This document shows, piece by piece, positions 5,106 to 43,468 of a stretch of 43,468 bases of DNA. How positions within the stretch are numbered: position 1 is the first letter of the stretch; the number at the start of each line of letters is the position of its first letter. The stretch is from Burkholderiales bacterium 68-10 (lineage in GTDB: Bacteria; Pseudomonadota; Gammaproteobacteria; Burkholderiales; Burkholderiaceae_C): positions 135,433-178,900 of the forward strand of contig MKTG01000057.1 of the NCBI GenBank assembly GCA_001897615.1, in the 5' to 3' direction. A program made the position numbers and the translations under genes. The notes below the pieces were generated by a model, which worked only from the letters and a program-made list of their open reading frames with translations, did no database searches and was not told the origin of the DNA.

Positions 5106-5150
5106 AGTAGCTGCTGGCGCTGACTGTTGGCGCGCTGGAGCCTTGTTCGG
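5106..5150 (+). repeat. Family A interspersed repeat, copy 1
   Basis: Begins with AGTAGCTGCTGGCGCT and continues for 29 nt with GGCGCGCTGGAGCCTTG. It fills the gap between the NorF-like gene and the four-helix gene. Family A units are 45 nt long: a 16-nt core plus a 29-nt arm. Confidence 0.8.
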
Positions 5151-5452: not shown

Positions 5453-6040
5453 TCAGCGCATCACGTAGACCAGCGGAAACAGCACCAGCCACAGCAGGTC
5501 CACCAGGTGCCAGAAGGCGCCGGCGGTCTCCAGCGTGTGGGCTTGCAGCCTGCCGCGCTCGCGCGCCAGGCCGATGGCGGTCAGGCCCAGCGCCAGCAGG
5601 CCGGCCAGCACGTGCAGCAGGTGAAAGCCGGTCAGGATGTAGTAGAAGTCGAAGAACAGGTTGCCGTCGCCCATGCCGATGCCCTGCGCCGCCTTGTCGG
5701 CGTACTCCCTCAGCTTGAAGACCACGAAGCCCGCGCCCAGCAGCCAGCCGGCGCCCAGCCAGCCCAGCGCGGCGCCGCGCGTGTTGTCCCGCGTGGCGTG
5801 CACCGCCCGCGCCACGGCCCAGCTGGCCGACAGCAGCAGGGCGGTGTTGAGGGCGCCCGCGCTCACGTCCAGCGACTGCTGCGATGTGCGAAACAGCTCC
5901 AGGTGCCGCAGCCGCGTGAAGGCAAAGGCGCCGAACAGCACGCAGAAGGTGGCCAGCTCCAGCGCGATCACGTACCAGATGAACAGGTCACCCGGCAGGC
6001 GTGGCGCGGCGGCGTGGCGTGGGTCAGTCGATGCTTGCAA
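5453..6040 (-). CDS. Cytochrome c oxidase subunit III family protein (NorE-like)
   Basis: Integral membrane protein of 195 residues with five predicted helices, shorter than true COX3 (seven helices) and matching the NorE-like branch. Diagnostic stretches are GDLFIWYVIALELATFCVLFG near the N-terminus, FYYILTGFHLLHVLAGL in the fourth helix, and ETAGAFWHLVDLLWLVLFPLVYVMR at the C-terminus. NorE-type proteins are accessory to nitric-oxide respiration, and the NorF-like gene follows directly. The promoter side is occupied by a family A repeat 3 nt from the start codon, then a MITE, so its expression signals may lie within or across these elements. Confidence 0.85.
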   Translation of the reverse strand: MQASTDPRHAAAPRLPGDLFIWYVIALELATFCVLFGAFAFTRLRHLELFRTSQQSLDVSAGALNTALLLSASWAVARAVHATRDNTRGAALGWLGAGWLLGAGFVVFKLREYADKAAQGIGMGDGNLFFDFYYILTGFHLLHVLAGLLALGLTAIGLARERGRLQAHTLETAGAFWHLVDLLWLVLFPLVYVMR

Positions 6041-6043
6041 AAC

Positions 6044-6088
6044 GATAGCTGCTGGCGCACGACTGGCGGGCGCAAACGGTCTGAATTT
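6044..6088 (+). repeat. Family A interspersed repeat, copy 2 (MITE target)
   Basis: Core GATAGCTGCTGGCGCA plus a 29-nt arm. Its last eight bases (CTGAATTT) are the left target-site duplication of the adjacent MITE. Confidence 0.85.
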
Positions 6089-6322
6089 GACTCTACTCGC
6101 GAATGACGGTGAGGTACTTGATCAGTGCCGCACTGCGACACGACGCATGAGAAACATGAACAGCCATACGCAGAGGACGCAAAGAAAACCGATGGATCTT
6201 CTGGCTTTCCGCGTCCTCTGCGAAATCTCTGCGTCCTCTGCGTTCGGAGGTTGGCGGTTTCCAATAAGCGATCATTCGACGCCTTGTCTCGCAGGCCATC
6301 ACCATCATTCGCGAGAAGAGCC
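6089..6322. mobile_element. MITE copy 1, inserted at the end of a family A repeat
   Basis: A 234-bp non-coding element with 24-nt terminal inverted repeats (left begins GACTCTACTCGCG, right end read inwards begins GGCTCTTCTCGCG; three mismatches). It is flanked by an exact 8-bp direct repeat CTGAATTT (6081-6088 and 6323-6330). Inside are several copies of the CGCAGAGGACGC motif in both orientations. It carries about 35 bp absent from copy 2 (near 6135-6170). There is no transposase, so it must be mobilised in trans. GG termini and an 8-bp duplication are compatible with the ISL3 family, which is an inference from memory. Confidence 0.88.
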
Positions 6323-6342
6323 CTGAATTTTCATCAGATGGT

Positions 6343-7396: not shown

Positions 7397-7441
7397 AGTA
7401 GCTGCTCGCGCTGTAAGGAATAGCGCTGGCACCGATTTTCA
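7397..7441 (+). repeat. Family A interspersed repeat, copy 3
   Basis: Core AGTAGCTGCTCGCGCT plus a 29-nt arm. It lies upstream of the SLAC1-type gene in the divergent intergenic region. Confidence 0.7.
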
Positions 7442-10580: not shown

Positions 10581-10625
10581 AGAAATCGTGCTGAAGCTCC
10601 CGTTCACCAAGCGCCAGCAGCTATC
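10581..10625 (-). repeat. Family A interspersed repeat, copy 5
   Basis: On the minus strand begins GATAGCTGCTGGCGCT. It ends six bases before the cysT start codon, occupying the place of a normal ribosome-binding site. Confidence 0.85.
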
Positions 10626-41943: not shown

Positions 41944-41977
41944 ACGCCTTTGCGGCGGTGGCGATTACTGCAAAATC

Positions 41978-42022
41978 AATAGCTGCTGGCGCTGTTTCGG
42001 CGAGCCCTGCAAGCCGGTTTTC
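41978..42022 (+). repeat. Family A interspersed repeat, copy 14 (MITE target)
   Basis: Core AATAGCTGCTGGCGCT plus a 29-nt arm whose last eight bases (CGGTTTTC) are the left target-site duplication of MITE copy 2. Confidence 0.88.
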
Positions 42023-42221
42023 GGCTCTACGCGCGAATGATGGTGAGGTGCTCGATCAGTGCCGCACCGCAGAGGACGCTAAGAAAACCGATGGATCTTC
42101 TTGCTTTCTGCGCCCTCTGCGAAACCTCTGCGTCCTCTGCGTTCGGATGTTGGCGGTTTCCAATAAACCACCATTCAAAGCCTTGTCTTGCAGGCCATCA
42201 CCATCATTCGCGCGTAGAGCC
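42023..42221. mobile_element. MITE copy 2, inserted at the end of a family A repeat
   Basis: A 199-bp non-coding element with perfect 24-nt terminal inverted repeats (outer end GGCTCTACGCGCGAATGATG), flanked by the exact 8-bp direct repeat CGGTTTTC (42015-42022 and 42222-42229). The interior is closely similar to MITE copy 1 apart from a 35-bp gap. The right duplication ends on the last base of the stop codon of the neighbouring MFS gene. It fills, with the repeat before it, the 285-nt gap between two convergent genes. Confidence 0.92.
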
Positions 42222-42228
42222 CGGTTTT

Positions 42229-43468
42229 CTACAACGCCTCGCTGCGCTCGGCGCGCACCGTGCTCTCGCGCACCGCGCGCCGGATGACGGGCGGCTGCGC
42301 GCCGATGTGGAAGGCCAGCTTGCGCTCGCGCAGCGCGGCGTCGTCCACGCTGACGCGCTCGAAGCGCCGCAGGTGCTCGGTCCAGGAATCGTCCTCGATC
42401 ACCTCGACAAAGCGCCCCGGATCGTTGATGTCGGCCAGCAGCTCCCAGGCCAGCGCGCCCTGGCGCAGGCGCGCGCGGCGGCTTTCCTCCATCAGGGCGC
42501 GGAAGGCCGGCGCGCGCGCCGGGTCGATCTGGAATTCGATGGTCACCAGCACGTGGCCGCTTTCGGGCGGCTCACTGACGCTGGGGCGCGGCTGCGCGCC
42601 GGCCGGGCGCGGGTCTTCCATCACGCCGTGGTCGGGCCAGCGCCGCATGGCCAGCGCCATGGCGGCGCTGCCGCTGGCCGCGCCCAGGCCCAGCGCCACC
42701 GGCACGCTGCTCCAGGTGGCCACCTGGCCCCACACGGCGGCGCCCAGGGCGCTGGCGCCCATGATGGCCATCTGGTACATCGACATGCCGCGCGCGCGCA
42801 CCCAGTCGGGCAGGCTGAGCTGGGCCGACACGCTGAGCGAGTTGGCGGTGGTCAGCCAGGCCGCGCCGCCCAGCGCCATGGCCAGCACGCCGACCCACAG
42901 GTGGCTGTTGACGGCCATCACCGCCATGCCGAGGGCCTGCGTGACCGCGCCGGCCAGCACCAGGTGATCGCGCGAGAGGCGCCGGCGCAGCGCGGGCAGC
43001 ACGAAGGTGGAGGCCACCGCGCCGGCGCCCATCGCCGCCAGCAGGGTGGTGAAGGTGCCGGCGCCGCCGCCCTCGACCAGGCGCGCCACCAGCGGCAGCA
43101 GCGCCATCAGCGCGGTGGAGTGAAAGAAGAAGATGGACACGCGCAGCATCACCCCCTTCAGGTGGTAGGACTGGCGCACGTACTGCAGGCCCACGCGCAT
43201 GGCGCCGGGCAGGGGCTCGCGGCCCAGCGGGTGGGGCCGGTGCTCGCGCCGCCAGCGCGAGATGATCAGCGCCGCTGCCACCGACAGCGCCGCGTTGAGC
43301 AGGAACACCCAGGCGCTGCCGGCGCCGGCGATCAGGGCGCCGGCCACCAGCGGCCCCAGGATGCGCGCGGCGTTCATCGACACGCCGTTGAGCGCCAGCG
43401 CCGCCGGCAGCTTGGTGCGTGGCACCAGCTCGGGCACGATGGCGGCGAACACCGGCCAGCGCAGCGCC
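42229..43468 (-). CDS. MFS transporter (MFS_3 type) with C-terminal monooxygenase-like domain, N-terminus outside window
   Basis: The frame is open through the right edge (codons before the GTG at 43452 read ALRWP), so the first helices lie outside. Visible: several helices of an MFS_3/EntS-like exporter (NGVSMNAARILGPLVAGALI, MRVGLQYVRQSYHLKGVMLR), up to about residue 285. After a proline-rich linker follows a dimeric ferredoxin-like domain of antibiotic-biosynthesis-monooxygenase type (HVLVTIEFQIDPARAPAFRALMEE through FHIGAQPPVIRRA). Such fusions are known in this transporter group; the domain's role is unclear to me. The TAG stop sits at the boundary of MITE copy 2. Confidence 0.88.
   Translation of the reverse strand, partial: ALRWPVFAAIVPELVPRTKLPAALALNGVSMNAARILGPLVAGALIAGAGSAWVFLLNAALSVAAALIISRWRREHRPHPLGREPLPGAMRVGLQYVRQSYHLKGVMLRVSIFFFHSTALMALLPLVARLVEGGGAGTFTTLLAAMGAGAVASTFVLPALRRRLSRDHLVLAGAVTQALGMAVMAVNSHLWVGVLAMALGGAAWLTTANSLSVSAQLSLPDWVRARGMSMYQMAIMGASALGAAVWGQVATWSSVPVALGLGAASGSAAMALAMRRWPDHGVMEDPRPAGAQPRPSVSEPPESGHVLVTIEFQIDPARAPAFRALMEESRRARLRQGALAWELLADINDPGRFVEVIEDDSWTEHLRRFERVSVDDAALRERKLAFHIGAQPPVIRRAVRESTVRAERSEAL

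Follow-up and report, generated by a model that had tools for sequence, protein, structure and literature searches.

The miniature inverted-repeat transposable element (MITE) described here is, with high probability, a non-autonomous transposon of the IS1595 family, which is likely moved by an insertion sequence (IS) of the same genome and which inserts at a single position of a dispersed palindromic repeat (family A repeat). At the level of sequence, the offset between MITE and repeat is fixed in 39 of 40 copies, the orientation is free, the repeat is older than the insertion at the two sites of the window (the whole stretch of 43,468 nt that was analysed), and matching ends are found on an intact transposase gene. 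By the same kind of evidence, related IS in other genera show the same offset. The preliminary description of this DNA had proposed that a non-autonomous element targets the repeat; the MITE does so, but not alone, as this target specificity is common to the IS group.

Two copies of the MITE are located in the window, with 24-nt terminal inverted repeats and 8-bp target duplications as they had initially been described. Copy A occupies positions 6089-6322 of the plus strand (234 bp) and is flanked by the duplication CTGAATTT on its left (6081-6088, plus strand) and on its right (6323-6330, plus strand). Its left terminal inverted repeat (6089-6112, plus strand) and its right one (6299-6322, minus strand) differ at three positions. 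Copy B, a 199-bp version with identical 24-nt ends, occupies positions 42023-42221 of the plus strand between two copies of CGGTTTTC (42015-42022 and 42222-42229, both plus strand). In each case a family A repeat of the plus strand precedes the element: at site A it extends over 6029-6088 with its core AGCTGCTGGCGC at 6047-6058, and at site B over 41963-42022 with its core at 41981-41992, the upstream limit being approximate in both. The last 8 bases of each repeat are the left target duplication itself, and the distance from the start of the core to the end of this duplication is 42 nt at both sites. The fixed offset given in the preliminary description as bases 38-45 is thus the same one, in a numbering which begins three bases upstream of the core.

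Both insertion sites of the window lie between long ORFs. At site B, a minus-strand ORF (42229-43452) ends with a stop codon that includes the last base of the right duplication (window 42222-42231), so that the insertion is placed at the extreme end of this ORF. The interior of copy A includes a palindromic stretch (6169-6243, no strand assigned) common with a second dispersed repeat of the GCAGAGGACGCAGAGG type. Repeats of this type are found inside the MITE at 6169-6243 and at about 42068-42153 of the window, and other family genomes, as well as a few sampled spots of the own genome, have them devoid of MITE ends. A search of Rfam against the window gave no matches.

The genome to which the window belongs comprises 3.64 Mb in 116 contigs, and 40 MITE copies, scored out of 90 first-look candidates, were fetched with their flanks. 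For each of them, the 80 nt on either side were searched for the best-matching 12-nt core. This offset survey, by which the proposed rule could have failed, upheld it: the distance from core start to duplication end is 42 nt in 37 of the 40 copies and 41 nt in two, and one copy (L025) has no repeat. The cores of the 37 copies at offset 42 show no mismatch in 18 cases, one in 10, two in eight and three in one. Restricted to cores with up to two mismatches, the counts are 36/40 at offset 42 and 2/40 at offset 41, against 79 and 73, respectively, when 20,000 positions carrying an AT-rich 8-mer were sampled at random from 263 kb of the own genome. Offset 42 is thus reached by only 0.4% of such positions, and this control rules out a simple liking for AT-rich 8-mers. 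Of the 39 copies with a repeat, 26 have it to the left of the MITE and 13 to the right (p 0.053). Copy L025 is also devoid of a matching duplication, and a later rearrangement of this locus is therefore possible.

The 39 copies with both ends are 199-254 bp long, with a mean pairwise identity of 0.91 and a minimum of 0.71. Their target duplications are perfect in 23 cases, agree at 7 of 8 bases in six and at fewer in ten, and they vary from locus to locus, as do the repeat sequences. A search with the MITE end sequence (up to three mismatches) yielded 82 matches, compared with one for the reversed pattern, and added five loci, that is, the autonomous IS and four MITE copies. Two of the latter are cut by contig ends and have offset 42 with two core mismatches; the other two have their second end in unreadable sequence. 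Since copies were found through scored candidates and the end pattern, those with both ends decayed may escape the count. Among 150 genomes of the family, with up to five best candidates taken per genome, matches to the MITE were found in eight; outside the own genome they are confined to the inner palindrome, which is part of another dispersed repeat.

The target repeat is abundant irrespective of the MITE. Its 14-nt core, with up to one mismatch, gave 416 matches versus 13 for the reversed pattern. In the window, the 14-nt form TAGCTGCTGGCGCT gave 26 matches with up to two mismatches versus 0.82 expected, many of which look like coding sequence. The upstream-flank test retains eight unoccupied copies in the window. 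One example extends from core to tail at 5109-5150 (plus strand), and the cores of the others start at 7400, 17564 and 38911 on the plus strand and at 10622, 26150, 28697 and 34150 on the minus strand. In a 263-kb sample, the 128 unoccupied core matches were divided, by a gap in their scores against the upstream profile of the occupied sites, into 40 family members, including the eight of the window, and 88 others. Within the family, a 16-nt core is present in 61 of 150 genomes, with at least 10 matches in 16 of them, and absent from 89; the own genome has 184 matches, and the genomes G015 and G072 have 295 and 194, respectively.

Occupied and unoccupied repeats follow a common consensus. The duplicated 8 bp are the repeat's own tail, with the consensus cgaTTtg in unoccupied copies, so that the MITE enters the repeat at its 3′ end. 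A T run is present in 27 of 37 occupied versus 20 of 40 unoccupied repeats (p 0.06), and an insertional preference for repeats with such a run is suggestive only. The predicted stem pairing appears roughly alike in the two sets, in a comparison made without statistics, and by eye several occupied repeats have a poor 3′ arm. A preference for stronger hairpins was also considered, and neither this pairing comparison nor a test of hairpin strength supported it. Classical REP sequences are characterized by a GTAG or CGTC tag and an associated RAYT transposase. Compared with these, the target repeat is likewise a high-copy palindrome, and a position between ORFs is seen at the two insertion sites of the window.

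The repeat predates the insertion at both sites of the window, as relatives carry it there without the MITE. At site A, the relative most similar at this locus (G163) aligns uninterruptedly over 801 columns with 92% identity, and it has the repeat, no MITE and a single copy of the target with one base different. In total, three of the nine relatives compared at this site (G163, G160, and G173) align through with the repeat kept, and the alignments of the remaining six are interrupted at the site and uninformative. Similarly, site B holds the repeat but no MITE in four of seven relatives (the same three and G164), which are more diverged here; the alignments of the other three are interrupted.

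A transposase with the same ends had been proposed as an object of search, and one was found. There is a single match to the IS1595 transposase domain in the whole genome; it lies outside the MITE copies, none of which includes such a transposase. It is placed in an IS of 1,075 bp with the ends GGCTCTTCTYGCGAATGCTG, located between matches to the MITE end pattern and flanked on both sides by the perfect 8-bp duplication AGAAACAG. A degenerate repeat (4 of 12 core positions mismatched) is found on one side of it, again at offset 42. A single frame of 343 codons, with no stops within, fills the IS, and its product matches PF12762 (49.2 bits, cut-off 27) and NF033547 (174.9 bits, cut-off 75), with an N-terminal zinc-binding domain (NF050000, 51.5 bits, cut-off 28). 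The ends of the MITE resemble those of the IS over 25 nt at 96% identity (right end of copy A) and over 24-25 nt at 88% (copy B), and beyond the last 24-25 nt no clear similarity between the two was found. Mobilization is therefore deduced rather than observed: based on the ends, the length of the duplication and the common target, the transposase of this IS most likely moves the MITE. Among 29 genomes of the genus, close relatives of the transposase were restricted to the own genome, and one other genome had weak matches (25-30% identity). An ISL3 element, at first suggested as partner by the nature of the ends and by the duplication length of 8 bp, was rejected, as DDE_Tnp_ISL3 had no matches in the own genome and was positive in 4 of 14 control genomes.

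Relatives of this transposase are distributed in several genera. A scan of the collection gave 41 loci, in Acidovorax, Comamonas and others. Acidovorax temperans harbors 18 elements with related ends, 12 of them at offset 42 and three at 41. The remaining three have no repeat on the visible side; two of these show one end only, and the third, a 106-bp element (L218, 1062-1168) with a perfect duplication, is a clean off-target insertion. Two insertions each in Acidovorax facilis and Acidovorax delafieldii are at offset 42 with 3-5 core mismatches, three of the four being pieced together from contig ends through matching duplications; a further A. facilis end (L185) has no repeat. A Comamonas insertion (L084) is at offset 42 with three mismatches. 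The end search covered 23 of the 41 loci and counted those with a full 8-bp duplication; it gave seven distinct insertions with perfect duplications, three at the repeat and four elsewhere (L087, L091, L092, and L095), where L092, L093, and L094 have identical flanks and count once. One of the four, in Hydrogenophaga (L091), belongs to a relative with 62% identity. Loci L080 and L081 were re-examined as L219 and L223.

Strong matches to the transposase were present in 12 of 399 genomes of the family (up to five best candidates per genome). Their 16 loci provided 12 insertions with perfect duplications, after four loci with unusable ends (L226, L233, L234, and L235) were dropped; five are at the repeat, all at offset 42, and seven are elsewhere. 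In the case of G121, which belongs to another genus, an IS whose ends differ (GGCTATGTCTG) and whose transposase is 43-45% identical has all four of its copies at offset 42, with the repeat on either side. One insertion in G070 is also at 42, and the cores in these two genomes have 1-4 mismatches; an individual core with 4-5 mismatches may be a chance match. Off-repeat insertions are those of L224 (84% identical), L225 (62%), L227, L228, L229, L230, and L232, the last being a different IS of G121, which also harbors the four targeted copies. High numbers of the repeat are present in genomes of the genera of L224 (23 matches in G095) and L225 (82 in G004 and 43 in G142), so that a shortage of targets is no obvious excuse for these two. 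In the genera of L227, L229, and L230, the one genome searched has one or two core matches. In the transposase tree, which has long branches, the IS that target the repeat are not grouped in one clade: the targeting label has to change three times, with two or more of these changes forced by well-supported branches. Targeting is not absolute, and L025, the 106-bp element of A. temperans and the off-target IS relatives are its exceptions.

The mini-MITE of 106 bp in A. temperans also carries passengers. At L210 (1001-1770) and L216 (1094-1863) it contains a transposase frame of the IS200/IS605 family (NF033573, 147.7 bits, cut-off 55); these two 770-bp copies are identical and stand at two sites whose duplications differ, and the mini-MITE thus appears to have moved together with its passenger. 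At L214 (1042-2329) and L221 (1014-2301), again two sites with different duplications, a frame of the IS630 family is nested in it (NF033545, 293.1 bits, cut-off 100). Larger units of 1952, 2020, and 2777 bp include sequence of both passengers.

In the mechanism that we favor, the IS1595 transposase would recognize the approximately 24-nt ends of the MITE, move it, and cut in such a way that the last 8 bp of the repeat, which are AT-rich and lie past the 3′ foot of its hairpin, become duplicated. The transposase, and not a host protein, would read the repeat, mainly through its asymmetric sequence (the core and the AT-rich tail) and not through the stability of the hairpin alone; we infer both points. 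A serious but unproven rival is a reading of structure, according to which any stem-loop with an AT-rich stretch behind it, similar to an intrinsic terminator, would receive insertions at its 3′ foot, with the repeat favored only as the commonest hairpin of this kind in these genomes. Several insertions in distant relatives agree with it: in L227 an 11-bp stem stands immediately before TTTTTCTT, in L230 a 7-bp stem immediately before TTTTTCAT, in L092 a terminator-like hairpin is one base off TTTTCTTT, and in L229 such a hairpin adjoins the insertion, with a duplication that is A-rich on that strand. In L076, L077, and L238 the predicted stem of the repeat stops at the base preceding the duplication. 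The hairpin tests were exploratory and chosen after the data had been seen, and they gave p 0.034 (non-repeat sites) and 0.039 (repeat sites) for a foot-anchored score, but combined p values of 0.08 (11 non-repeat sites) and 0.43 (9 repeat sites) when hairpin strength was compared with AT-matched nearby positions. Moreover, the low joint percentiles of the hairpin analysis are due in large part to how T-rich the duplication is, the pairing of occupied and unoccupied repeats looks alike, several occupied ones have by eye a poor 3′ arm, and the same one of the two hairpin feet is used in all 39 insertions at a repeat in the own genome. The single foot and the poor arms favor a reading of sequence, and the structural one is possible but doubtful. 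Equally tentative is its extension, in which a branch of IS1595 transposases would seek out terminator-like hairpins and insert at their 3′ foot, and in Comamonadaceae a hairpin repeat that is very abundant in some genomes would turn this aim into single-base targeting by transposases with about 45% identity.

The constant spacing between the conserved core and the cut, and the abundance of the repeat independently of the MITE (see the own genome and G015 above), would also suit a host protein or process which acts on the repeat and tethers the transposition complex at a set distance. We consider this unlikely, as the consulted part of PMC1525189 holds the transposase itself responsible in the cases of IS1397 and ISKpn1. 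Survival of harmless insertions into intergenic repeats after random integration is in line with the position of both window sites between long ORFs, but it leaves the single-base precision unexplained, given how rarely random AT-rich positions fall at offset 42, and is very improbable. Least credible of all is the spread of repeat and MITE as a single composite unit. Although the repeat adjoins the MITE in 39 of 40 copies, duplications and repeat sequences differ by locus and the repeat is found on either side; the mixed orientation and the relatives carrying the repeat alone at the same sites refute composite copying at the two window sites. The insertions are independent, as had been concluded initially from the differing duplications.

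If confirmed, the finding would add IS1595 to the families aiming at dispersed palindromic repeats, and it shows a MITE population shaped by such an aim. The data set includes 67 insertions from several genera with an offset of 41 or 42, two diverged transposase groups and off-target relatives. It bears on how a small transposase picks one base, and the precise target, the small size of the protein and the very short non-coding ends make recognition directly testable. Should the reading at the hairpin foot hold, the repeat would provide genome-wide landing pads for IS, MITEs and their nested passengers.

That IS target REP-like palindromes is known, as the preliminary description had stated: the consulted part of Tobes and Pareja (2006, PMC1525189) names ISPsy8, ISPa11, ISPpu9, ISPpu10, ISRm22, ISRm19, IS1397, ISKpn1, and IS621, and the families IS3, IS110, IS4, IS256, and IS5, with IS1595 not named there among them. 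Its table contains IS1016, of the IS1595 family, at 2/17 and IS1016C2 at 1/3. The pairing of such an element with this repeat had been called new, and this holds against the searchable open-licence literature in PMC: in the titles and beginnings of abstracts among the matches listed, neither an IS1595 element nor a MITE with a dispersed repeat as its target was reported. Within these sources, IS insertion at one REP position is established, and the IS1595/MITE case with its unusually clean target rule is new.

The partner IS resembles its family in the DDE_Tnp_IS1595 domain, the N-terminal zinc-binding domain, the 8-bp duplications and the single transposase gene. The parts of PMC8101967 consulted list the groups ISPna2, IS1595, ISSod11, ISNwi, ISNha5, ISH4, and IS1016, all with the zinc-binding domain except IS1016. 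ISApl4, another IS1595 element, has AT-rich 8-bp duplications at mostly intergenic sites, with no repeat described in the portion of PMC12561309 consulted. Bacterial MITEs are described as generally preferring intergenic sites, with one case in which an IS, IS1111, targets a REP lying within a MITE, QMITE2 (PMC10969869, in part). The present element is similar to those MITEs in being short and mostly intergenic, with terminal inverted repeats and duplications, but unlike the ones presented in that part of the source it aims at one base of another repeat. As in the type 1 association of PMC1525189, copies are placed at a single position of a high-copy intergenic palindromic repeat. That type requires 100% of the copies at one position, and with 37 of 40 at offset 42, two at 41 and one without a repeat, the present case is very nearly, but not strictly, of this kind. 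In contrast to the REP-targeting IS named there, it concerns the IS1595 family, mostly non-autonomous copies, the tail of another repeat and several genera.
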